Below the pieces are notes generated by a model, which was not told the DNA's origin, searched no databases, and saw only the letters and a program-made list of their open reading frames with translations. Of a DNA stretch of 64,000 bases, positions 17,206 through 64,000 are shown piece after piece. How positions within the stretch are numbered: position 1 is the first letter of the stretch; every line of letters begins with the position of its first letter. This DNA comes from Acidobacteriota bacterium. GTDB lineage: Bacteria; Acidobacteriota; Terriglobia; Terriglobales; Acidobacteriaceae. The position numbers and the translations under genes were made by a program. The stretch is from contig JAFDVW010000019.1 in the NCBI GenBank assembly GCA_018268755.1, positions 274,348 through 338,347 of the forward strand, read 5' to 3'.

Positions 17206-17859
17206 TCAGGACTGGGGCTGCCGCACCAGATGATTGCGTACGGCATACATCACCAACTGGCTGACGGAATGGAAGTTCAGCTTGCGCATAATATTGGAGC
17301 GATGGGTTTCCGCCGTCTTCAGGCTGATGCCGAGTAAAGCCGAAATCTCCTTACTGGTCTTCCCTTCCACGACATATTGAACGATCTCAAGTTCGCGGGG
17401 AGTGAGGCGATTGTGCGTGGGATGGCCGGTCTGGACGGTCCCTCTCCCGGTCCAGTCGGTAGTGCCCGACTGCCAGGCGTGGTAGGTCCGTCCTCTCTGG
17501 ATGGAGTCAATGGCGCCTTTAAGATCGCGAGCTGCGTCGGATTTTCGCACGAACCCGCTGGCCCCGGCTTTGAGCAGCTCCCGGAAAATATGCTCTGATT
17601 CTTCAATCGTGAGGATCAGTACCTTTGTGGAGGAGAGCTGTTCCACAATTTTCCTGGTCGCCTCCAAGCCATTCATGCGCGGCATGCGCACGTCCAGAAT
17701 CGCCAGATCGGGCTTCAGCTTGAGCGCTTTGTCCAGCGCATCGGCTCCGTCGACGGCTTCGCCACAAATTTCCCACTCCGGATTTCCCTGGAGGAGGTTC
17801 CGCAGACCATGGCGAACAATTTCATGGTCATCAGCGATTAGAATGCGAAACATTTTCAT
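17206..17859 (-). CDS. NarL/FixJ-type response regulator (first copy)
   Basis: Two-component response regulator: receiver domain (about 1-120) with acidic pair DD at 10-11, phospho-acceptor Asp56 in AILDVRMP, Thr in LILTIEES and the conserved Lys in FVRKSDAARDL, then a LuxR-type helix-turn-helix (about 150-210) with LTPRELEIVQYVVEGKTSKE and KTAETHRSNIMRKL. It is a close paralogue of the regulator at 47858-48532. There is no kinase gene beside it; the HisKA_3 kinases at 49378 and 59951 are candidates. It is divergent from the exopolysaccharide-type genes that begin at 18297 and may act on the CTAGGG repeats in the shared gap. Confidence 0.93.
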   Translation of the reverse strand: MKMFRILIADDHEIVRHGLRNLLQGNPEWEICGEAVDGADALDKALKLKPDLAILDVRMPRMNGLEATRKIVEQLSSTKVLILTIEESEHIFRELLKAGASGFVRKSDAARDLKGAIDSIQRGRTYHAWQSGTTDWTGRGTVQTGHPTHNRLTPRELEIVQYVVEGKTSKEISALLGISLKTAETHRSNIMRKLNFHSVSQLVMYAVRNHLVRQPQS

Positions 17860-47857: not shown

Positions 47858-48532
47858 ATGAGCAAGCTACGCATTTTGGTCGCTGACGATCATGAGATAG
47901 TTCGCCGCGGCATCGTGGCCCTTCTAAGCAACCGCAGCGATTGGGAAGTATGCGCGGAATGCAGCAATGGTACGCAAGCCGTGAAGCAAACGGAGGAACT
48001 GCGCCCTGACGTGGCGATTCTGGACGTGGGCATGCCCCTGCTGAATGGGCTGGAGGCCACGCGCCAAATTTTGCGGAACAGTCCTGACGTTCGCATTCTG
48101 GTTCTAACCGTCACGGACAGTGACCAAATGGCAGGAGCAGTCCTGGAGGCTGGTGCGCGCGGCTTCCTCTTGAAATCGGATGCGGCCCGCGACCTGGTCA
48201 CCGCGGTGGAAGCCCTGCAGAACCATCGCACTTATTTCACCGCGCGTGTGGCGGACATGGTCCTCTCCAATTATCGGGCCAGAAATGGGGCCCCCGAGAC
48301 GGTGGCGGAGCGGGTCCCCAGCCTGACTCCCCGGGAACGCGAGGTGGTGCAACTGGTGGCCGAAGGGAAGTCCACCAAGGAAGTGGCCACCCATCTCAAC
48401 CTGAGTGTAAAGACCGCGGAAACGCATCGCAGCAATATCATGCGCAAGCTCGGCATTCATTCCGTCAGCGAATTGGTCTTGTACGCCGTGCGGAACAATA
48501 TCGTCCAGGTGACGGGCAGCAATCCGATCTGA
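47858..48532 (+). CDS. NarL/FixJ-type response regulator (second copy)
   Basis: 224 residues: receiver (about 1-120) with DD at 10-11, phospho-acceptor Asp in AILDVGMP, Thr in VLTVTDSD and Lys in FLLKSDAARDL; LuxR HTH (about 155-215) with LTPREREVVQLVAEGKSTKE and KTAETHRSNIMRKL. It shares the DD-HEIVR start and HTH core with the regulator at 17206-17859 and is clearly paralogous. The nearest plus-strand signalling gene is the hybrid kinase at 49378. The ribosome site is weak (GGAAATTCT). The N-terminus LRILVADDHEIVRRG is intact. Confidence 0.93.
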   Translation: MSKLRILVADDHEIVRRGIVALLSNRSDWEVCAECSNGTQAVKQTEELRPDVAILDVGMPLLNGLEATRQILRNSPDVRILVLTVTDSDQMAGAVLEAGARGFLLKSDAARDLVTAVEALQNHRTYFTARVADMVLSNYRARNGAPETVAERVPSLTPREREVVQLVAEGKSTKEVATHLNLSVKTAETHRSNIMRKLGIHSVSELVLYAVRNNIVQVTGSNPI

Positions 48533-48585: not shown

Positions 48586-48798
48586 CTAACTGGATTTTTT
48601 CTTGGGCACCTTCGCACCCTTTTTTCTGGCCTCGGAGAGGCCGATGGCAATCGCCTGTTTACGGCTTTTGACCTTTCCGCCTTTGCCGCCCGGGCCCGAA
48701 CTCAGCGTTCCTTTTTTCCGTCTTTTCATGGCGCTGGCCACTCGTTTGGCGGCCGCTTTTCCATATTTTCTACCACCCGATTTTTTACTCGTGGGCAT
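48586..48798 (-). CDS. DUF6496-like small basic protein
   Basis: 70 residues, strongly basic, with the KYGKAAAKRVASAMKRRKKG start and the VKSRKQAIAIGLSEARKKG core of the DUF6496-type family, followed by AKVPKKKS. Small nucleic-acid-binding or stress proteins of this kind are common in Acidobacteriota; their function is unproven. AAGGAGG lies seven bases before the ATG. It overlaps the end of the preceding minus-strand gene by 14 bases, so the two form a translation-coupled pair. Confidence 0.8.
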   Translation of the reverse strand: MPTSKKSGGRKYGKAAAKRVASAMKRRKKGTLSSGPGGKGGKVKSRKQAIAIGLSEARKKGAKVPKKKSS

Positions 48799-49036: not shown

Positions 49037-49377
49037 GGTGATCTCCTCTTGGGGAAGTCCGAAGACGCCCCGGGCGCTTGATCTGGCCAACCCATATATC
49101 TAGCTATCTAGCTGCTGGATGCATCGTAAGCGCGACCGGAGACATGACCAATACCAGGCAATCCTGATAAGTCTCCGCGAAGTTGATGTAATTGCCCGGA
49201 AAGTCTTGTGGATCGCGGCCTGGAGGAAACGCTCCGCCCCGTCCGAACGTGCGGCCCGATCTACACAAAGTCCTGTATTCCCTTCCTTTGTACAGGTCAG
49301 GCATGCTGATTGAATGCTATGTAGTGTCTGCCCCTGTTCGCTGGGTGGGTAAGGAGATTTACCCACTTTCGCCTACG
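49037..49377. promoter_or_regulatory. gap upstream of the hybrid kinase
   Basis: About 340 bases between divergent genes. It contains a tandem TATCTAGC (49097-49112) and the hairpin at 49345-49366 described separately. No other gene is seen, although one frame is open from 49192. Confidence 0.35.
49345..49366 (+). promoter_or_regulatory. 8-bp hairpin presenting a GGAG loop
   Basis: GTGGGTAA GGAGAT TTACCCAC is a perfect 8-bp stem whose 6-base loop contains a Shine-Dalgarno-like GGAG. It ends 11 bases before the chosen kinase start at 49378. The loop could be exposed or hidden by temperature or a partner, affecting translation. The spacing from GGAG to the ATG is about 21 bases unless the stem folds and shortens it. 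Confidence 0.4.
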
Positions 49378-52300
49378 ATGAAGCATCCTTCCCCGCTGGA
49401 TGCGGACCAACGTGCCAATTGGGAGATGCACGAAGCGATGCCAAGGGTACAAGTTCTGATTGTGGATGACCACGAGCTGTTTCGCCAGGCGGCCCGTTCC
49501 TTCCTGGAATCTCATCCTACGGTTTTGGTTTGCGGCGAGGCCGGAGACGGCATGGAGGCGATCGAGAAAGTTCGCCAACTCCGCCCCGATGTCGTACTCA
49601 TGGACATCAACATGCCGCGCATGGGGGGATTGGAAGCCACCCGCTGCATTTTGCGCGAAGCCCCCGCTTGCCATGTAATTTTGGTCACGCAAAACGATGC
49701 CGCCATCGCTCGCGAGCAGGCCCGCACAGTAGGAGCCAGAGGCGCAGTCACTAAGTCCGATCTGGCGCGAGATCTGATTCCATCCATCAGCCAACTCTTT
49801 GTCCAGGACGAGCCCCACCCCGGGAAGGGGTACGGCGAGGAAGCTTTGCCAGCGGAGACTCCCCTGCCGGAAGGCACGCTGGGCAAGCTGGTCGACGGGT
49901 TCGCCTGGGAAGAGACCCCGCTGGGGCCCATGGGGAGTTGGCCGCAAAGCCTTAAGACTGTGGTCCGGACCATGCTGCGGTCCCGCTTTCCCATGTGGAT
50001 GAGTTGGGGATCGGAGCTGACCTTTCTCTACAACGACGCCTATGCCAAGATGACGCTCGGTAAGAAGCACCCCTGGGCCCTGGGCAAACCGTCGCACCTC
50101 GTCTGGGAGGAGATTTGGGGGGACATTGGCCCGCGCATCCGCCAGGTCCTGGCCACCGGGCAATCGACCTGGGACGATGCTCTGCTGTTATTTCTGGAAC
50201 GCAGCGGCTATCGCGAGGAAACTTATCACACCTTCTCCTATAGCCCCCTATCGGATGACAGCGGCAAAATTGCCGGACACCTGTGCGTGGTCACGGAAGA
50301 AACCGACCGGGTGATTGGCGAGCGGCGGCTGAGCACGCTGCGGTCACTCGCCGCGGAATTGAACAAAACCATCACGGAAGACGACGTTATTGGCTCCGTG
50401 GCCCGCGTTCTGGGAGAAAATCCGCAAGATCTGCCCTTCAGCCTTACCTATTTCTTTTCTGCAGACGGCCGCCAGGCCCGGCTGGGCGGCCTGAGCGGGC
50501 TGCCTGCAGGCCATCCCGCCGCACCAGAGACTCTCGACCTCTCCGATCCGCTACCAGTCTGGCCTCTTGCCGGACTGGCAGGCGGTAAGGACTCACAGCT
50601 GGTGGAAGAACTCAGTGCCCAGTTCTCTTCCATGCCTACAGGAGCCTGGGATATCTCCGCCTCGCGGGCCTTGCTGCTGCCCATTGCCAGCCAGACCCAG
50701 GGAAGCCCCGCCGGGGTCCTGATTAGCGGATTAAATCCTTATCGCCCCCTGGACGTGAGTTACACGGGCTTCCTGAATGTGGCGGCCGGGCAGATCGCCG
50801 CCAGCATTGCCAATGCGCGGGCTTACGAAGAGGAGAAGAAGCGGGCGGAAGCATTAGCCGAGATCGATCGGGCGAAAACGCTGTTTTTCGGCAATGTCAG
50901 CCATGAATTCCGGACCCCGCTCACTCTGATGCTGGGCCCGCTGGAAGATATGCTGGCCGAGGCGGACCAGCTTTCCCCTGCCCAGCAAAAGCGGTTGGAC
51001 ATCGCCCACCGGAATTCTTTGCGCCTGCTGAAGCTGGTGAATACCCTGCTCGACTTCTCGCGCATCGAAATGGGCCGTTTCGAGGCCAGCTATGAGGCGA
51101 CAGACCTCGCGCAATTGACCGCTGATCTCGCCGGCGTCTTTCGATCGGCAATCGAACGGGCGGGACTGAAATTCATCTTGCACTGTCATCCCCTCTCCCA
51201 GCCGGTCTATGTGGATCGCGAGTCCTGGGAGAAGATCGTTTTCAACCTGCTCTCGAATGCGCTGAAGTTCACCTTCCATGGGGAGATCGAAGTCTCCCTG
51301 GCCCCTGGGGGCCTGGGAGTCGAGCTGGTGGTCCGCGATACCGGGATCGGGATCCCGGAGAAAGACTTACCCAACCTCTTCGAGCGGTTCTATCGGGTCA
51401 AGAATGCGCAAGGCCGGACCTTCGAGGGCACTGGCATCGGACTCGCGCTCGTCCATGAATTGGCCCGGGTGCACGGGGGGGACGTCCGGGTGGAGAGCAG
51501 CCTGAGGCAAGGCAGCACGTTTCGTGTATCGCTTCCTTTCGGAAAGGACCACCTGCCGGCAGAACAGCTGGGCGCTGCCGGGAACGCGTCTCCAGCTCCT
51601 CTCAGGCCCGGAGCCTATGGAGAGGAGGTGTTCCTCGAATCCTGGCTGAATGAAAATTCCCGAAACGAAGTGTCCTCCGCCAATCCGGAAACGCTGGCGG
51701 CCACGAGTGGCCGGCCGCACATTCTGCTGGCGGACGACAACAGTGACATGCGCGAGTATCTGGGAAAACTGCTGGCGCCGATGGGCGAGGTGCGCACCGC
51801 GGCCGACGGAGAGGCCGCCCTGCGCTCGATTCAGGAACAGGCGCCGGACCTCGTCCTGAGCGACATCATGATGCCCCGGATGGACGGCTTCGAGCTGCTC
51901 CGGCGCTTGCGGGAAGATAAGCGGACCGCGGCCATTCCGGTCATCCTGCTCTCGGCGCGGGCGGGTGAAGAGTCGCGGGTGCAAGGGTTGGGCGCCGGGG
52001 CCGACGACTACCTGATCAAGCCGTTCGCGGCCCGCGAACTGCTGGCCCGGGTAAGGTCCCAGCTGAATATGGTGCAGCTGCGCCGGGAAGGGCTGGAGAT
52101 GGAACGCCGGCTGCGGGCCGAGGCCGAACTGGAGGGGGAGCGGCTCAAGGAATTATTTGCCCAGGCCCCGGTCGCCATCGCCGTGCTGGCGGGGCCAGAG
52201 CACCGTTTGCGTTTTGCCAACCAGGAATTCTGCCGAGCCACCGGCCAGCAGCCTGACCGGGAACTCGCGGGAAAACCCATCCGGGAGGCCCTGCGCGAGA

Positions 52301-54195
52301 TCGCGGACCAGGGAGTCTTCGAGCAGCTCGATGAGGTCTACCGGTCGGGCCTGCCTCACACCGGATATGAGGAGCGCATCACGATTAAGCGGGGACCCGC
52401 GGGCAGCCTGCAGGAGGTGTTCTCCAATTTCGTCTATCAACCTCTGCGCGATGCCGCCGGAATGGTCGAAGGAATCATGGTGGTCGCGGTCGACGTCACC
52501 GATAAAGTGCTGGCGCGCACGAAAGTGGAAAGCACGAACAACCTTCTGGCCTCGATTGTCGATTCCTCCGACGACGCCATTCTCAGCAAAGACCGTGATG
52601 GCATCATCACCAGCTGGAACAAAAGCGCCGAGCGGATGTTTGGATATCCCGCCCAGGAGGCCATCGGCCGGCACATCACTCTGATCGTTCCCGGGGAGCT
52701 GCGCTCCGAGGAAGAGGCCATCATCACCCAACTGCGCGCGGGCCAACCCATTGACCACCTGGAGACGGTCCGGCAGAGAAAAGATGGCAGTCATCTCGAG
52801 GTGGCATTGACCGTCTCGCCCATTCGGGATTCCTCCGGCCAGGTTTTTGGCGCCTCCACCGTGGTGCGCGACATTACGGAACGAAAGGCGCTGGAGCGGG
52901 CCCAGAGAGCGTTTGGGGAATTTACCGCGGACCTGAACCGGGTCCAGTCCATGGAAGACATTTATACCGCGGCGCTGAAGGGAATTTGCAGCGCCGTCCG
53001 CTGTGAGCGCGCATCCATTCTCCTTTGTGATGGCGAGGGTGTCATGCGCTTCGTGAGCTGGCGGGGTCTTTCCGACGAGTATCGCCAGGCGGTAGAGGGG
53101 CATTCGCCCTGGACACCCAACGACGGCGAGGTCCAGCCCATATGCATTTCCGACATCGACCAGGCGGAGCTTGATCCCACCCTGAAAAGCAAAATCAGGG
53201 CCGAGGGTATTCGCGCCTTGTGCTTCATTCCTGCGTTGGCAAACGGCAAGGTCATCGGCAAATTCATGACGTACTTTGCCGTGCCCCATGAATTCAGTTC
53301 TTTCGAAGTGGACTTTTGCAAAGCCATCGCTCGCCAGCTGGGCTATGTCATCGAGCGCGAGAAGTCGAGAGAATTGCTGCGCAGCAGCGAAGAGCGCTTT
53401 CGTCAGCTTTCCGAGACACTGGAGGCGCAGGTCCAGGCCCGCAGCCAGGAGCTGGAAATGCGCAGCGCCGAGCTGCTGCGACAGTCCATGCAGCTCCGCG
53501 ACCTGTCGTGGCGCTTACTCAAGAGCCAGGATGACGAGCGCCGCCATATCGCCCGCGAGTTGCACGACAGCGCCGGTCAAACCTTGACCGTGCTGGGCAT
53601 GAACGTGGAGCAGGTGCTCGCCAATGTCCCCCCGGGAGACCCAGGGTTGAGCGCCCGGCTGGAGAGCATTCGGGAGATGGTGCAGCAACTCCACCGCGAA
53701 ATAAGGACAACCTCGTACTTGCTGCATCCGCCGCTGCTCGATGAATGCGGCCTGCCTTCCGCGATCAGCTTCTATGTGGAGGGACTGGCGGCGCGCAGCG
53801 AGTTGAAAATTGAATTGGACATTGCCCAGGACGTCGGCCGCTTACCCCGCGACATGGAGCTGGCGGTGTTCCGCCTGGTGCAGGAGTGTTTGACCAATAT
53901 CCACAGGCATTCCGGCAGTAAGACCGCCCTCATCGCCATGCGGCGGGAGGGCCATCCCATCCAGCTGGACATCCGGGACCGGGGGCACGGCATGTCGCCC
54001 CAGCGCCTGGCGGAAATTCAATCGGGGCGCTCGGGAGTGGGGATCGGGGGGATGCGGGAGCGCCTGCGGCAATTCGAGGGCACTCTTAACATCACGTCTG
54101 ATGCTTCCGGCACGGTCATTTCCGCAGTCGTTCCCATACCGGAGAACGCTTCTTCCAACTTGCTCGATCCTGACTCTTTCTCGACCGCGATATAG
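49378..54195 (+). CDS. giant hybrid sensor kinase with two histidine-kinase modules
   Basis: About 1605 residues without a membrane segment. Order: receiver (about 22-140, Asp in VVLMDINMP), PAS (165-305), GAF (315-475), HisKA with NVSHEFRTPL (His near 509), HATPase_c (590-710; LLSNALKF, DTGIGI, GTGIGLAL), second receiver (780-895; VLSDIMMP), PAS (925-1050), PAS (1055-1170), GAF (1180-1320), coiled coil (1325-1385), HisKA_3 with RELHDSAGQTL (about 1394) and HATPase_c (1497-1590; DRGHGM, GIGGMRERL). The second module is of the NarX/DesK type and would serve NarL-type regulators such as the one at 47858. The start is uncertain: no good ribosome site; ATG 49378, 49426 or 49438. Confidence 0.9.
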   Translation: MKHPSPLDADQRANWEMHEAMPRVQVLIVDDHELFRQAARSFLESHPTVLVCGEAGDGMEAIEKVRQLRPDVVLMDINMPRMGGLEATRCILREAPACHVILVTQNDAAIAREQARTVGARGAVTKSDLARDLIPSISQLFVQDEPHPGKGYGEEALPAETPLPEGTLGKLVDGFAWEETPLGPMGSWPQSLKTVVRTMLRSRFPMWMSWGSELTFLYNDAYAKMTLGKKHPWALGKPSHLVWEEIWGDIGPRIRQVLATGQSTWDDALLLFLERSGYREETYHTFSYSPLSDDSGKIAGHLCVVTEETDRVIGERRLSTLRSLAAELNKTITEDDVIGSVARVLGENPQDLPFSLTYFFSADGRQARLGGLSGLPAGHPAAPETLDLSDPLPVWPLAGLAGGKDSQLVEELSAQFSSMPTGAWDISASRALLLPIASQTQGSPAGVLISGLNPYRPLDVSYTGFLNVAAGQIAASIANARAYEEEKKRAEALAEIDRAKTLFFGNVSHEFRTPLTLMLGPLEDMLAEADQLSPAQQKRLDIAHRNSLRLLKLVNTLLDFSRIEMGRFEASYEATDLAQLTADLAGVFRSAIERAGLKFILHCHPLSQPVYVDRESWEKIVFNLLSNALKFTFHGEIEVSLAPGGLGVELVVRDTGIGIPEKDLPNLFERFYRVKNAQGRTFEGTGIGLALVHELARVHGGDVRVESSLRQGSTFRVSLPFGKDHLPAEQLGAAGNASPAPLRPGAYGEEVFLESWLNENSRNEVSSANPETLAATSGRPHILLADDNSDMREYLGKLLAPMGEVRTAADGEAALRSIQEQAPDLVLSDIMMPRMDGFELLRRLREDKRTAAIPVILLSARAGEESRVQGLGAGADDYLIKPFAARELLARVRSQLNMVQLRREGLEMERRLRAEAELEGERLKELFAQAPVAIAVLAGPEHRLRFANQEFCRATGQQPDRELAGKPIREALREIADQGVFEQLDEVYRSGLPHTGYEERITIKRGPAGSLQEVFSNFVYQPLRDAAGMVEGIMVVAVDVTDKVLARTKVESTNNLLASIVDSSDDAILSKDRDGIITSWNKSAERMFGYPAQEAIGRHITLIVPGELRSEEEAIITQLRAGQPIDHLETVRQRKDGSHLEVALTVSPIRDSSGQVFGASTVVRDITERKALERAQRAFGEFTADLNRVQSMEDIYTAALKGICSAVRCERASILLCDGEGVMRFVSWRGLSDEYRQAVEGHSPWTPNDGEVQPICISDIDQAELDPTLKSKIRAEGIRALCFIPALANGKVIGKFMTYFAVPHEFSSFEVDFCKAIARQLGYVIEREKSRELLRSSEERFRQLSETLEAQVQARSQELEMRSAELLRQSMQLRDLSWRLLKSQDDERRHIARELHDSAGQTLTVLGMNVEQVLANVPPGDPGLSARLESIREMVQQLHREIRTTSYLLHPPLLDECGLPSAISFYVEGLAARSELKIELDIAQDVGRLPRDMELAVFRLVQECLTNIHRHSGSKTALIAMRREGHPIQLDIRDRGHGMSPQRLAEIQSGRSGVGIGGMRERLRQFEGTLNITSDASGTVISAVVPIPENASSNLLDPDSFSTAI

Positions 54196-56785: not shown

Positions 56786-57358
56786 ATGTCTCAAGAAAGA
56801 GCAGATCGCGCTTTATTTTTCCCGCTGGCGGATCCCGCGGAGACAACGCCGCTGGTCTCCGCCACGGAAGCCGAAGTGGTCGGTCTTTTTGAGGAATTGC
56901 GCGATTCCCTGTTTCGCTACCTGCTTTCCTTCCGGCTCTTGCCACATGACTGCGAAGACCTGATTCAAGAGGTATTCCTCGCCCTGTTTACGCATCTTCA
57001 GCGGGGACGCTCGCGGGCCCACCTGCGGGCGTGGGTCTTCCGCGTGGCCCACAACCAGGGCCTGAAAAGACACTACCAAAATCGACGCCGCCAGCAGAAC
57101 CAGGTGGATTCCACCCATCTCGACGAACACGCCGATAGCGCCCTGAACGTCGAGGAACAAATGGTGCTGAACGAAAGGCAGTCTCGCCTGCTGTCAGCAT
57201 TCGAGGCGCTGCCGGAGCAAGATCGCTATTGTCTGCGCTTGCGCGCGGAAGGCTTGACCTATCGGGAAATCGCCGAAGTGCTGGGGGTTTCGCTGGGCAG
57301 TGTTGCCCAATATCTGAGCCGCTCCTTAGCACGCCTGGCACGCGCGGACAGGAGGTAG
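56786..57358 (+). CDS. ECF-type RNA polymerase sigma factor
   Basis: 190-residue sigma-70-like factor with region 2 (LFRYLLSFRLLPHDCEDLIQ, EVFLALFTHL, RAWVFRVAHNQGLKRHYQN) and region 4 (LPEQDRYCLRLRAEGLTYRE, IAEVLGVSLGSVAQYLSRS). It lacks a region-3 insert, as in ECF members. The following gene starts three bases after the stop and encodes the probable anti-sigma factor. A candidate target is its own promoter and perhaps the divergent TonB-dependent receptor. Confidence 0.93.
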   Translation: MSQERADRALFFPLADPAETTPLVSATEAEVVGLFEELRDSLFRYLLSFRLLPHDCEDLIQEVFLALFTHLQRGRSRAHLRAWVFRVAHNQGLKRHYQNRRRQQNQVDSTHLDEHADSALNVEEQMVLNERQSRLLSAFEALPEQDRYCLRLRAEGLTYREIAEVLGVSLGSVAQYLSRSLARLARADRR

Positions 57359-57361
57359 AAG

Positions 57362-58219
57362 ATGGATCCGGAACACGACCACATTGGCGATGAAGGGCTG
57401 CTGAGTTTCAGCGACGGCGAAACGCCGCCTCACCGCGTGGCCGCGGTCGAGGCCCACCTGGAGATCTGCGCCAGCTGCCGCACCCGGAAATCCACGATGG
57501 AGCGGACGCTGGCGGAGTTCCGGCAGATCCAGGACCAGCGCTTCAGCCCGCAGATTCCGCCTGGGCTCGGTCCGCGCAATCGGCTGAGACTTCGCCTTCA
57601 GGAAGCAGGCACTGCCCCGCAAGAACGGCTGCGCGCCTTGCCGGGAAAAGTTTGGGGACAGTGGGGCGTAGGCTTGGCTGCTTTGGCCTTGTTGCTGGTG
57701 GGCAGCGCGCTCTGGGTGGCACATAGTCCGCAGAGGCCGGAGGCGGTGGAAGCCCGGCTGAGCCCGCGAGCCGACCTGACTCCGGGCGCGGTACGGCCGG
57801 TTGCCCTGCGTGATATCTGCGGAGAAAGACCCAGCGATAAGAACCGCCCGGTTCCTGTGGCGGTGCAGCAACAAGTATTTCGCGAATACGGCATTCCCAA
57901 TGCCCGCCCCGAAGACTATGAAGTGGACTACCTGATTACTCCGGAGTTAGGAGGGGCCAGCGATATCCGGAATCTGTGGCCGCAACCCTTCGCCAGCGCC
58001 CCCTGGAGCGCCTATCGCAAAGATGATCTGGAAGACCGCTTGCACGAGCTGGTTTGCGCGGGCAGCCTGGACCTGGGAAGCGCACAACGCGAGATTGCCA
58101 CCGACTGGATTGCGGCCTACAAGAAATATGTAAAACCCGGCAAAGCCCTCGAACCGGCGCACGGCGTCTCCAGCCGACGCCTTGCCCTGCAGATAGCGAA
58201 CGCGGCCTGGATACACTGA
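57362..58219 (+). CDS. zinc-finger anti-sigma factor with membrane anchor
   Basis: 285 residues: N-terminal zf-HC2 domain with HLEICASC after HRVAAVEA (H-x3-C-x2-C), a single membrane helix (VGLAALALLLVGSALWVAH, about 102-120) and a periplasmic domain of about 160 residues (VPVAVQQQVFREYGI, DYLITPELGGASDIRNLWPQ). It begins three bases after the sigma gene, so they are co-translated. Release of sigma would need proteolysis or a conformational signal; the periplasmic part may be the sensor. No family is recognised for that part. Confidence 0.88.
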   Translation: MDPEHDHIGDEGLLSFSDGETPPHRVAAVEAHLEICASCRTRKSTMERTLAEFRQIQDQRFSPQIPPGLGPRNRLRLRLQEAGTAPQERLRALPGKVWGQWGVGLAALALLLVGSALWVAHSPQRPEAVEARLSPRADLTPGAVRPVALRDICGERPSDKNRPVPVAVQQQVFREYGIPNARPEDYEVDYLITPELGGASDIRNLWPQPFASAPWSAYRKDDLEDRLHELVCAGSLDLGSAQREIATDWIAAYKKYVKPGKALEPAHGVSSRRLALQIANAAWIH

Positions 58220-58685: not shown

Positions 58686-59528
58686 GTGCGTTACACGCAA
58701 ACAAGCAAAGGGTTCCAGCAAACAAGCGGCAAGCACAAGAACGGAGGCAGTCACGCTCTAAGTTGCCTGCACATCGGGCGGGCCGCGAATCTGGCAGGGT
58801 GCGCAGCCGTCCTGGCCTGCGCCTTATTGCTGAGTGCGGGGCCCCTGGCAGGGCAAGCGGCGGAGCAGCCCCCGGCAAGCAGTCCGTCCTCCGTTCCCGA
58901 TCTCTCCCCGGAAAATGCCCTGAAAGCCACGGTAGACCTGCCGGACTCTCCTTCGGCCTATGTGCCTCTTTCTCCACGCCAGAAGTTCCATTTCTTTCTG
59001 CGCACGACCTACGAACCCTACACTTTTTTTTCTGCCGCTTTCGGCGCCACGCTGGCACAAGCGGAAGGCCAGTGGTATGGCTACGGAGGGGGCCTGCCGG
59101 GATGGGGAAAGCGCTTCGGCGCCAGCCTGGCCGATACTGAATCCCGGCGCTTTATCCAAAGCTTTCTGCTCTCCACGGCGCTGCACCAGGATCCTCGCTA
59201 CTTTCGCTCGAACCAAAAGAATGTGGTTCGCCGCGCCTGGTACGCCGCCACCCGCGTCTTCGTTACGAAAGCGGACACCGGTCAGAAGACCTTCAACTCT
59301 TCGGAAGTGTTGGGCGCATTGTTTACCAGCTCACTGCAGAATGCATACTATCCCGAGCGCGATCGCGGATTCAGCAATACCATGGACCGTTTTCTGGGAT
59401 CGCTGGGTTCGGATGCTTCCTCCAATCTGTTGCGAGAGTTTGGTCCTGACCTATGGAGACTGTTTCGCAAACACGCCCCGGAAAAAATCCAAAAGATCGA
59501 GCAGAAGATTCCCAAGCCCCCGGAATAG
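58686..59528 (+). CDS. exported helical protein conserved in acidobacteria, unknown function
   Basis: 280 residues with a long N-region, hydrophobic signal core (AAVLACALLLSAGPLAGQAA), a Pro/Ser linker, the DLPDSPSAYVPLSPRQKFHF segment and a helical domain with YEPYTFFSAAFGATLAQAEG, RFGASLADTESRRFIQSFLL and ALHQDPRYF. I recall this type of protein as common in Acidobacteriota, annotated only as hypothetical. The start is uncertain: GTG 58686 follows AAGGA directly and no ATG lies before the signal core. It may belong to the envelope. Confidence 0.58.
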   Translation: MRYTQTSKGFQQTSGKHKNGGSHALSCLHIGRAANLAGCAAVLACALLLSAGPLAGQAAEQPPASSPSSVPDLSPENALKATVDLPDSPSAYVPLSPRQKFHFFLRTTYEPYTFFSAAFGATLAQAEGQWYGYGGGLPGWGKRFGASLADTESRRFIQSFLLSTALHQDPRYFRSNQKNVVRRAWYAATRVFVTKADTGQKTFNSSEVLGALFTSSLQNAYYPERDRGFSNTMDRFLGSLGSDASSNLLREFGPDLWRLFRKHAPEKIQKIEQKIPKPPE

Positions 59529-59950
59529 TCCCAACCCCCTCCGGGCCGAGTTCGAAAATGAAGGCACTTCCAGGCCCAGCCGCAGGGTGGCGCCGGAACG
59601 AGCCTGGGCGGCTGGGAATGCTTCAGGGAAAACAACCGGTTGAAGACCATTCAGCATCTATCCCAGGCGCTGCGAAGTCCGGGCCGACGGCATCCCGCGC
59701 TGCTCATCTTCATGGACACCTTTTTCCCAAGCCTCGACTCCGCCGCTGTCCTCAAACCGGACACTTCCTGGTCCACCCGGCCGTTAGCGCGTGCACCCCG
59801 CTTGCGGGCAGCTTCCTGTCCTTCTGGAAGTACAGAGTAATGGGGACTAAGACTGCCGATTTTGCTGGAAATCCCTCACGGTCATTGCATAATGCTTGCT
59901 CTGGTATCTTTGCTTCCTACCAAACGAGTGAGCGACGCCGAGAACATTTC
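59529..59950. other. gap with no clear gene
   Basis: A 422-base stretch before the MASE1 kinase. One frame is open from 59453 through to the kinase, but it lacks signal, membrane or domain features and reads as low-quality Pro/Arg/Ala-rich sequence, so it is taken as upstream non-coding DNA. No palindrome of note is seen. Confidence 0.35.
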
Positions 59951-61885
59951 ATGATGGCGGGAGAGTTGGTACCCAACTCGGAAGCTCAGTACGGAGCGCC
60001 CGGCCGGGCGTCCGCGCCTCTCTACGTGGCGCGGGTGTTCCTGATTGCGGTCGCCTACCTGATCGTGGGGAAAATAGGCCTGGCTGTTCCCTTCACCAGC
60101 GGGAATGTCTCGCCGATTTGGCCCGCCGCGGGGCTCGGGGTCGGGGTGGTCGTGCTCTGGGGTCAGCCTGCGGGAGTCGGGGTCCTGCTGGGAGCATTCC
60201 TGATCAATTTCCTGAACGGCATGCCCTGGCCGGTGGCATTGGGCATAGCACTGGGCAACACCGGTTCGGCACTTCTGGGCGCGTTGCTGTGGCGGTCGGC
60301 CAGCCAGGGCAAATTCCTGCAGACGCCGGTACGCGGTGTGCTGGCACTCTTCTTTGCCGCCGCCGTGGGCCCCTTATTATCGGCCACGGTGGGGGCGAGC
60401 AGCCTTTATTTCGGCCACATCGCGGCTTGGCATGGATTTCGTTCTGCCTGGCAGGTGTGGTGGGCGGGCGACGCTGTCGGCATCCTGCTGGGGGCACCGT
60501 GTTTAGTTTTGCGGGGTCATCTCAAGCACATTCGAAACCGGGCTCTGGAGTACATCAGCCTGCTGCTGGCGCTGGTTGTGGCTGTGAGCTTGATTTTCCA
60601 CGGCGGGTTCGGCATCCACGATGACGTCCTGGCCTTTGTCGCGTTTCCCTTTCTGATTTGGGCGGCCATTCGCTTTCGCATCATGGGGGCCGTCTGCGCG
60701 TCGCTTCTGGTAGGCGGCATCGCCACCTGGTCGACCGCGCGCGGCCAAGGACCATTCGTCGAAGGCAACCCGGTGCACGACGTGGTTCTGTTGCAGGTAT
60801 TCGTGGTCCTGGTGGCCGCCACCACGATCCTGCTGGCGGCGGTGACCGAGGAAAGAGAACAAATCCGGGAGCGCCTGGCGGACCACGCGCAGCTATTGGA
60901 CCTGGCCAGCGACGCCATTCTGGTGCGCGGATTGGATGACACCATTTCCTATTGGAACCACGGCGCCGAGCGGCTCTACGGCTGGACCAGGAACGAGGTC
61001 CTGCACAAACCGGTGCAAGAGCTGCTGGGAACGCAGTATCCGCAATCGATTGCCGAGATCAAAGCTACGGTGTTGAGCAACCAGGACTGGAACGGCGAGC
61101 TTACCCACACTACCCGCGATGGGCGGCACATCAGCGTGGCCAGCCGCTGGTCTCTGTGGAGCGGCCAGGATGGGAAGCCCAAGGGATTCCTGCAGCTGAA
61201 TTCCGATATCACCGCACAACGGCGGACGGAACAGCAGTTGCGCGAGTTGACGGGACGGCTGTTGAAAGCTCAGGACGACGAACGACGGCGCATTGCGCGG
61301 GAATTGCACGACAGCGCAGGCCAGCTGCTGGCCGCGCTCAGCATGAATCTGGCCAGCCTGCAGCCTTTTCTGCCCCCCGGGCAAGCGGCCGACATATGCC
61401 AGGAGAGCGAGGGCCTGGTGCAGCAGTTAATGCGGGAGCTGCGCACACTCTCCCATCTCCTGCATCCGCCACTCCTCGACGAGGTGGGGCTCGCTTCCGC
61501 GGTGCAGTGGTTTGTGGAAGGCTTTGGGGAACGATCCCATATCCAGGTTGCGCTCGACCTTCCCGAGGAGCTGGAGCGCTTGCCCGCGGAGATCGAGACC
61601 GCCATTTTCCGCCTGATTCAAGAGGCCCTGACGAATATTCACCGGCATTCGGAGAGTCCCACGGCTACCGTGCGGATCGTCCGTAGCCCAGAGACCGTGC
61701 GAGTGGAAATAGCCGATGCGGGCAAGGGGTTCGCCCCGGAGTTATTGTCCACCAACCGGCTGAAGGCAGGGGTGGGAATCCAGGGCATGCGAGAGCGGAT
61801 ACGGCAATTGGGTGGGCAGTTTGAAGTTACGTCGGGAAACGCCGGAACTTTAATCGCCGCCAGCCTTCCCCTTTCTACGCAATAG
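59951..61885 (+). CDS. MASE1-PAS-HisKA_3 sensor histidine kinase
   Basis: 644 residues. Eight membrane segments (about 20-310) form a MASE1 sensor (VGKIGLAVPFTSGNVSPIWP and AAGLGVGVVVLWG). A PAS domain follows (about 330-430; DLASDAILVRGLDDTISYWN, GAERLYGWTRNEVLHKPVQE), then HisKA_3 with RRIARELHDSAGQLLAALSM and HATPase_c with EALTNIHRHSES, IADAGKGF and GVGIQGMRERI. It is of the NarX/DesK class, so it should phosphorylate NarL-type regulators; those at 17206 and 47858 are candidates. The ATG at 59951 is chosen because the sensor starts there. Confidence 0.9.
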   Translation: MMAGELVPNSEAQYGAPGRASAPLYVARVFLIAVAYLIVGKIGLAVPFTSGNVSPIWPAAGLGVGVVVLWGQPAGVGVLLGAFLINFLNGMPWPVALGIALGNTGSALLGALLWRSASQGKFLQTPVRGVLALFFAAAVGPLLSATVGASSLYFGHIAAWHGFRSAWQVWWAGDAVGILLGAPCLVLRGHLKHIRNRALEYISLLLALVVAVSLIFHGGFGIHDDVLAFVAFPFLIWAAIRFRIMGAVCASLLVGGIATWSTARGQGPFVEGNPVHDVVLLQVFVVLVAATTILLAAVTEEREQIRERLADHAQLLDLASDAILVRGLDDTISYWNHGAERLYGWTRNEVLHKPVQELLGTQYPQSIAEIKATVLSNQDWNGELTHTTRDGRHISVASRWSLWSGQDGKPKGFLQLNSDITAQRRTEQQLRELTGRLLKAQDDERRRIARELHDSAGQLLAALSMNLASLQPFLPPGQAADICQESEGLVQQLMRELRTLSHLLHPPLLDEVGLASAVQWFVEGFGERSHIQVALDLPEELERLPAEIETAIFRLIQEALTNIHRHSESPTATVRIVRSPETVRVEIADAGKGFAPELLSTNRLKAGVGIQGMRERIRQLGGQFEVTSGNAGTLIAASLPLSTQ

Positions 61886-62287: not shown

Positions 62288-63958
62288 TCAGTCAGTTTGC
62301 AGGGGAGTTGCTTCAGCGAGAGCCGTGGGTAAAACCTTTATTCGCTGCTGGGGCACCTCAGCGCCCCATCCATCCATAGCGCGACGATCGAAATATGATG
62401 TGATCAATCGCCCATCAGCTCCGAGTTCGCAGAGTTTTGGCTCGTCTTCAATCCTGAGAATTAACGGCACCATTTCGACCGTAAAACCGCCGGGAGTGCC
62501 CTTAGGTTTATAGTTGATTGGGAAGGCTTGGCGCGTCTCACTAATAAGGCCCAGGAGCAATCTGTCATACGTGTACTGTTTGTGATTGTGCTCCCCCCAT
62601 TTGATCATTTCGTCTATTTGGGCGTGATCGAACTGCCGAAGATCGGCAATTAGGTAGTCTGCCATCGTAAATCGATGACCGACGTCCTGTCCCAGGAATC
62701 TCAACCAATGATAATCACGCGGTTGTTCCAATATGTCAGCGAGGGTTAGCTCATAATAGTGGGACTCCACTAGCCAATTCTTAAAGAGCAGGTCGACGAT
62801 GTCCTGCTTTTGAAGCCTTGCGCTGATTTTTCGAAACGGCTCAATGGCTAATGCGTCAACCTTTTGAGTATAGGGCACCTCCATGCTCCAAGAGCTTTCG
62901 TGAAAGCGAATTCGTTCTAAATCGACAAGCTGCCAATAGCAAGTACCGCCTGTAAGGTCACAGAGCATCACGATGACGGGAATCGAGTAGTTGAGCCAGT
63001 AGCGCAGATGAGACATAGAGCCTCGATAGACAAAGCCACTTTTTGTGCGTTCCCGAAGATAACTTGGCCCAGCCTTGATCTGCACCGCAATAATTCTTCC
63101 GTGGCTTTTTCCTTCTTGCCGGATTTCGATTTCGCCGTCAATGCCTATATCTGATATCGGTTTTGAGCGAAATATATAGCTAAGGTCATTGGTAATCTTT
63201 AAACCCACTAAATGGACGCCTGCATTGGCAGTAATATCTGCATCAGTCGCATTGGGCCAAAAGGACCGACCGGCACTGTTCTCGGTCAGTGATTGGCTAT
63301 CCGTGCGCCTCGACGTTGTCGAGAAATCGGGTTTGGCCCTAACAATGCCTCTTTTCAATTCTTCCGGTGAAGGGGAGCCTGCGTTAATCGGACGGATCGG
63401 CTCATCCAGAAGAATGAAATCGGGAATGTCTGGTACGGGCACAGATTTCAGACATTCGGAGTTAGGTGAAGCGAGTTCTTGCCTCAACTCCATCAGTAAT
63501 CTGCCAAGCACATTCATGCCTATCAATTTGCCGTCTTCTGATCGTTTAGCACCCCAAAAATCGTCCTTTCGTGATTCCTCGACAATTGGTTTGTCGCCGG
63601 TAGAGCGCAGAATCTCTCCGAATCGCTGCCAGTTCTGAGCGAGTTTCACACGCAAACACCACTTCATGAGTTTCACTTTTATTACATCCCAATCTGGTCG
63701 CGTGTGCTCTCGTCGGTATTTCTTGCTCTTCATTTTCGCCGTCATCGCACTTCGTTCGGCTAAAACGATCTTCTGAATTTCAGGATTACGAGGAAACCGG
63801 CAAGCTTGATAAAGTGCCTCCGAAGACCAAATTGTCGTGTCATTTACAAACAGCGGAAAGCCTCCGGCCATGTTTGACAGTCCTCCGTGCTTCTCCGTTG
63901 TTACACGGAAGACGGCGCATTCCTGAGGCAAGTACGTTCGTTGTTGGCCGCTGTGCAT
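62288..63958 (-). CDS. NADAR-DUF4365 fusion protein, candidate defence effector
   Basis: 556 residues. The N-terminal part (about 15-165) matches the NADAR/YbiA-like domain: GLSNMAGGFPLFV, IWSSEALYQACRFP, TGDKPIVEESRKDDFWG and GMNVLGRLLMELRQE. NADAR domains hydrolyse ADP-ribose N-glycosidic links; some reverse guanine ADP-ribosylation in DarT-type toxin systems. After a Pro/Ser-rich linker (about 170-240), residues about 245-400 match DUF4365, with ISDIGIDGEIEIR and IIAVQIKAG carrying a PD-(D/E)XK-like D...E-x-(Q)IK pattern. The C-terminal 150 residues are helical and unassigned. Codon use is visibly more AT-rich than elsewhere in the window. The ATG at 63958 has no clear ribosome site. It sits inside the att-bordered segment. 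Confidence 0.78.
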   Translation of the reverse strand: MHSGQQRTYLPQECAVFRVTTEKHGGLSNMAGGFPLFVNDTTIWSSEALYQACRFPRNPEIQKIVLAERSAMTAKMKSKKYRREHTRPDWDVIKVKLMKWCLRVKLAQNWQRFGEILRSTGDKPIVEESRKDDFWGAKRSEDGKLIGMNVLGRLLMELRQELASPNSECLKSVPVPDIPDFILLDEPIRPINAGSPSPEELKRGIVRAKPDFSTTSRRTDSQSLTENSAGRSFWPNATDADITANAGVHLVGLKITNDLSYIFRSKPISDIGIDGEIEIRQEGKSHGRIIAVQIKAGPSYLRERTKSGFVYRGSMSHLRYWLNYSIPVIVMLCDLTGGTCYWQLVDLERIRFHESSWSMEVPYTQKVDALAIEPFRKISARLQKQDIVDLLFKNWLVESHYYELTLADILEQPRDYHWLRFLGQDVGHRFTMADYLIADLRQFDHAQIDEMIKWGEHNHKQYTYDRLLLGLISETRQAFPINYKPKGTPGGFTVEMVPLILRIEDEPKLCELGADGRLITSYFDRRAMDGWGAEVPQQRIKVLPTALAEATPLQTD

Positions 63959-64000
63959 CAATTTGTTTTACGCTCAAAAAGCGGAAACCAGGGGTCTCCG

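Follow-up and report, generated by a model that had tools for sequence, protein, structure and literature searches.

The two-kinase gene and its surroundings

The window considered here, a 64,000-nucleotide stretch of an acidobacterial contig, contains a gene encoding a hybrid histidine kinase, in which intact transmitters and receivers occur in a single polypeptide. The frame is open throughout from 49192 to 54195. Translation from the listed start, ATG 49378, gives 1605 residues without a stop, and the farthest possible 5' extension of the open reading frame is to TTG 49192. A product of 1585 residues is likelier, since the alignment with homologues begins at M21 (ATG 49438) and GGGAG is located 12 nucleotides upstream of that codon. 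The gene, its domains and a neighboring regulator gene are as follows.

47858-48532, + strand: NarL-type response regulator (REC and LuxR HTH), the likely partner in trans, probably transcribed separately (Pfam; conserved neighborhood)
49438-54195, + strand: hybrid histidine kinase, 1585 residues from the likely start and 1605 from ATG 49378, with a receiver-transmitter-receiver-transmitter layout
49453-49773, + strand: REC1, NarL/LuxR-class receiver with predicted phospho-acceptor D76 and no DNA-binding domain (Pfam; structure matches; receiver tree)
49873-50343, + strand: first PAS, which opens the cassette (PAS_4, E 1.6e-6; own HMM; AlphaFold model)
50395-50817, + strand: first GAF (weak in Pfam, E 0.15; own HMM, 164 bits; GAF-like topology; PAS-GAF fold matches)
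50872-51075, + strand: HisKA dimerization and phosphoacceptor domain, H509 in SHEFRTPL (Pfam; alignment)
51214-51540, + strand: HATPase of the first kinase, with intact N, G1 and G2 boxes (Pfam; alignment)
51721-52056, + strand: REC2, PhoB/PleD-like receiver with predicted phospho-acceptor D829 (Pfam; alignment)
52156-52506, + strand: second PAS (PAS_4, E 1.6e-12)
52546-52875, + strand: third PAS (Pfam)
52951-53346, + strand: second GAF (Pfam GAF, E 2.3e-12; the solved structure 3hcy matches residues 1191-1339)
53536-53736, + strand: HisKA_3 dimerization and phosphoacceptor domain, H1396 in RELHDSAGQ (Pfam; alignment)
53860-54138, + strand: HATPase of the second kinase, with intact N, G1 and G2 boxes (E 3e-10; alignment)

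The regulator and kinase genes are about 0.9 kb apart, and between them on the opposite strand is a small open reading frame (48586-48798, - strand) for a Lys/Gly-rich basic protein of 70 residues. Farther downstream, genes for an ECF-type sigma factor and then a zinc-finger (zf-HC2) protein, likely a sigma/anti-sigma pair (56786-58219, + strand), adjoin an oppositely oriented gene for a TonB-dependent receptor. These are followed by a MASE1-PAS-HisKA_3 membrane kinase (59453-61885, + strand), whose HisKA_3 core is the closest in the genome to that of the two-kinase protein, at 49% identity, and by an unusual-looking fusion of a NADAR domain with DUF4365 (62288-63961, - strand).

Pfam searches with the whole protein and with its segments bear out the two kinase classes and two receivers described in the initial annotation, in the order REC(NarL-type)-PAS-GAF-HisKA-ATPase-REC-PAS-PAS-GAF-HisKA_3-ATPase, the first GAF falling below Pfam thresholds. 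The whole-protein search returns Response_reg twice, HisKA (residues 499-566), HATPase (613-721), REC2 (782-893), PAS (1057-1166), GAF (1192-1323) and HisKA_3 (1387-1453), and the segment scans add REC1 (26-132), two PAS_4 domains (218-312 and 927-1043) and the second HATPase (1495-1587). The first core scores 55.4 bits against PF00512 (cut-off 26.9) and has the HATPase boxes; the second scores 57.8 bits against PF07730 (cut-off 24), with a matching HATPase and H, N and G boxes. Despite its Pfam E value, the first GAF assignment is supported by an AlphaFold model, in which this region is predicted to adopt a PAS-GAF layout (mean pLDDT 73, with a less certain GAF core), and by Foldseek, for which the best matches to the model are DosP and phytochrome PAS-GAF structures, at low whole-length TM-scores of 0.30-0.37. 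The solved structures nearest to REC1 include VraR and LuxR-family regulators, and these matches and the receiver tree place it in the NarL class, yet Pfam finds no HTH anywhere in the protein, so that REC1 does not amount to a NarL-type response regulator.

The active sites are strictly conserved. In an alignment of the window protein with six full-length homologues, the invariant residues are D30, D31, D76 and K126 in REC1; H509, N623/N627, D654xGxG and G686xG in the first kinase; D786, D787, D829 and K881 in REC2; and H1396, N1507, D1534xGxG and G1553xG in the second kinase. A seventh full-length homologue also has both kinase and both receiver active sites intact. The possibility that one of the modules lacks ATPase residues can thus be set aside, as the N and G boxes are intact in both cores.

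A small acidobacterial family built around a mobile cassette

Residues 166-900 form a PAS-GAF-HisKA-ATPase-REC cassette that occurs in several phyla and in haloarchaea. It is approximately 45-53% identical across Cyanobacteriota, Actinomycetota, Pseudomonadota, Deinococcota and haloarchaea, where it is plasmid-borne, and many Acidobacteriota also contain it. In relatives it lies close to the N-terminus, with a second HisKA core or a SpoIIE phosphatase after it; the proteins, annotated as "response regulator", "ATP-binding protein" or "SpoIIE family protein phosphatase", mostly share a second kinase core with the window protein, but they lack a NarL-type receiver at the N-terminus, and their C-terminal module is HisKA or SpoIIE. 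Among 58 cassette proteins examined, a second core follows the cassette in 51 (HisKA in 42, HisKA_3 in nine), three others (L012, L100 and L105) end in SpoIIE, and the remainder lack a second core or are cut. The statement that most hybrid kinases have one core therefore holds in general, with 53 two-transmitter proteins among 20,354 kinases (PMC3018481), but not for proteins with this cassette. In L100 and L105 a STAS-domain gene directly follows the cassette-SpoIIE gene, a link from two-component signalling to partner switching.

Searches for the full architecture detect 11 proteins, the window's included, that combine an N-terminal NarL-type REC with the cassette and HisKA_3. These come from about 530 acidobacterial genomes, an approximate figure because the class, family and phylum sets searched overlap. 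Seven proteins from the class and family searches (L136, L137, L168, L169, L170, L174 and L203) are full-length homologues whose signalling domains follow the same order; the closest, L169, is 64% identical over 1051 residues. The insert between REC2 and HisKA_3 varies from none in L136, a compact protein of 1177 residues, to several PAS/GAF domains, and in L203 the cassette PAS-GAF has been replaced. An apparent loss of the H-box and REC2 aspartate in L203 reflected a pattern stricter than needed, as THEFRTPL, ADIMMP and PKPF are all intact. The window protein looked like a unique chimera against 40 relatives and 199 phylum genomes, none of which had a full-length match, a view overturned by the family- and class-wide searches. 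It instead belongs to a small acidobacterial family, defined by REC1, the cassette and HisKA_3, that is apparently undescribed.

These homologues also settle whether two genes have been fused by a missed frameshift or an assembly artefact, which we consider exceedingly improbable. Of the remaining members, contig ends truncate L173 and L185, and L187 is in two parts in a draft assembly, the second part containing a run of Ns; the window gene, unbroken in frame, offers such an artefact no support, and seven full-length homologues in the same order, from other genomes and on unrelated contigs, exclude both a frameshift and chance.

The flanking parts of the protein have relatives of their own. 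REC1 (residues 20-140) and, at the C-terminus, the PAS, GAF and HisKA_3 domains have matches in REC-PAS-(GAF)-HisKA_3 kinases of Acidobacteriota such as L144 (Candidatus Acidiferrales, on the same contig as L015), L138 and two in L140, which form a sister group. Identities are approximately 45-49% for REC1, 57-60% for the best PAS and 50-54% for the HisKA_3 core, but these kinases lack the HisKA-REC2 cassette that is inserted in the window protein. Neither REC1 (p-AU 0.24) nor the first kinase with REC2 (p-AU 0.70) rejects a single origin for the proteins that carry the cassette, and the tree of the second kinase is too poorly resolved to show one. Since the cassette and the REC1-PAS-HisKA_3 parts each exist alone, the protein could be a simple gene fusion of two independent kinases that are not functionally coupled. 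This is quite improbable, given that several genera retain the fused arrangement and every active site in it, even as the intervening sensors turn over.

Receivers, regulators and the second kinase

The N-terminal receiver travels with HisKA_3. The second core is HisKA_3 in all eight readable proteins with REC1 and the cassette, and HisKA in 42 of the 43 cassette proteins that have a second core but not REC1. The one exception, L195, has an overlapping NarL-type HTH regulator at its 3' end, suggestive of an acceptor provided in trans. Fisher's test of REC1 against HisKA_3 gives p 1.4e-8, a value not to be taken at face value, as the association is phylogenetically clumped and comprises only two independent contrasts on starred branches, at most three, all agreeing. 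It may therefore be that the tie is one inherited fusion. The receiver tree separates the fused REC1 domains from the DNA-binding NarL regulators (91/87), the long-branched L195 regulator excepted. Two stand-alone NarL-like receivers without an HTH, located directly downstream of two-kinase genes (L136:6751-7116 and L203:6819-7175, both + strand), are nested among the fused REC1 domains rather than with the DNA-binding regulators. An HTH regulator is directly downstream of none of 12 HisKA_3 kinases with REC1, versus at least 10 of 27 without it (Fisher p 0.017, with short flanks at several loci). As REC1 is of NarL type and tracks HisKA_3, a point that the initial annotation, which recorded both receivers, had missed, it is a likely cis target of the second kinase.

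Alternatively, the kinase that charges REC1 could be an unrelated one. N-terminal receivers on kinases often serve as inputs, REC1 lies directly before PAS-GAF-HisKA, and the genome has several other HisKA_3 cores, so that an unlinked NarL-pathway kinase might phosphorylate REC1 to tune the first sensor unit, leaving the HisKA_3 core to act only in trans. We regard this as unlikely, because REC1 goes with HisKA_3 and not with the HisKA cassette, which is seen 47 times without it.

For a partner in trans, the initial annotation named two NarL-type regulators, at 17206 and 47858, and only the second has gained support. A counterpart 72% identical to it, its best match in that genome (G446, from another genus), is located directly upstream of the homologous kinase L137. 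This regulator-kinase pair is the only clear neighborhood common to the flanking sequences of the window and G446 loci, the other matches listed being shadow open reading frames of the kinase gene or domains of the kinase itself. In G491 a relative (52%) occurs about 6 kb from the kinase. In most kinase-bearing genomes, however, the 47858-type regulator is on another contig, and it is also found in genomes without a two-kinase protein, so that the link is only suggestive. The 17206 regulator shares just 50% identity with 47858, and the searches revealed no conserved adjacency for it. A closer paralogue of 47858, C36, has 65% identity.

Models for signalling through two kinases

Two-transmitter proteins are rare, and nearly all of the 53 recorded in a 2010 survey have receivers (PMC3018481); they are also known from myxobacteria (PMC4603909). 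A close comparison is with TodS/TodT, and also TmoS/TmoT, of Pseudomonas, in which the hybrid kinase has a transmitter-receiver-transmitter order and TodS uses a His-Asp-His-Asp relay (PMC4321377, PMC4861429). Pfam places two transmitters around a receiver in the window protein as well. Like TodS, it is soluble, its two kinase cores flank a central receiver and are each preceded by PAS sensors, and it probably acts on a response regulator in trans; at the level of layout, it differs from the published TodS in having an extra N-terminal NarL-type receiver, a HisKA_3 second core and more PAS/GAF domains. Its second core, with a DxxxQ motif in the H-box RELHDSAGQ, resembles the HisKA_3 kinases of the NarX/NarQ/UhpB class that are paired with NarL-type regulators, but it is located at the C-terminus of a hybrid, behind another kinase. 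Within the open-access literature, the scope of our search, no report was found of HisKA and HisKA_3 in one protein, or of their mix with class-matched receivers. A second core after the cassette is itself usual; the unusual part is the HisKA_3 second core together with the N-terminal NarL-type receiver.

The initial annotation proposed that HisKA charges the internal receiver and HisKA_3 charges NarL-type regulators, a scheme that, as far as sequence can indicate, fits the receiver classes and the genomic data. We would extend it to a cytoplasmic two-stage sensor, and infer the signals and each phosphotransfer and gating step. In the first stage, the mobile PAS-GAF-HisKA cassette would autophosphorylate at H509 and phosphorylate the adjacent REC2 at D829 in cis, presumably an ordinary hybrid-kinase step. 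REC2 would then allosterically gate the second stage by way of the coiled coil and sensors behind it, and the HisKA_3 kinase (H1396), adding its own PAS/GAF inputs, would phosphorylate NarL-class acceptors: D76 of REC1 in the same polypeptide and, in trans, a NarL-type regulator, most likely 47858. Because REC1 lacks a DNA-binding domain, the expected effect of phosphorylating it is feedback on the unit behind it or the draining of phosphate as a sink. This two-stage model, to which the NarL class of REC1 and the PhoB/PleD-like class of REC2 also lend support, seems to us evenly balanced between right and wrong.

Its main rival, less probable though far from negligible, is a linear phosphorelay of TodS type from H509 to D829 to H1396 to the 47858 regulator, with the second kinase acting mainly as a phosphotransfer domain. 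TodS, with the order PAS-HK-REC-PAS-HK, needs His190, Asp500 and His760 for signalling to TodT (PMC4321377; PMC4861429), and second transmitters replacing HPt domains have been argued to be common (PMC3018481); by analogy, a comparable layout that works as a relay (PMC4321377) may argue against gating. However, a relay would require a PhoB-like receiver to pass phosphate across classes to a HisKA_3 histidine, would leave REC1 unexplained, and sits uneasily with the fully conserved second ATPase core, although TodS too keeps autokinase activity. In addition, the same cassette drives SpoIIE outputs, where REC2 must gate allosterically because SpoIIE has no histidine to receive phosphate, and for this reason we weight gating above relay.

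The gating model could also be closed into a ring, in which HisKA charges REC2, which gates HisKA_3, and HisKA_3 charges REC1, which gates HisKA. We consider this rather unlikely, but if it were true, each receiver would lie directly before the sensor-kinase unit that it controls, providing feedback between two kinases whose different classes avoid crosstalk, with exchangeable sensors in between. More generally, cross-phosphorylation is normally a risk when one chain carries two kinases and two receivers, and two kinase classes, each with a class-matched receiver, would be a natural insulation device. The family would also be a convenient system in which to test how a receiver gates a second kinase, and the cassette, fused to HisKA, HisKA_3 or SpoIIE outputs, would provide a natural series for asking whether its receiver relays phosphate or acts allosterically.
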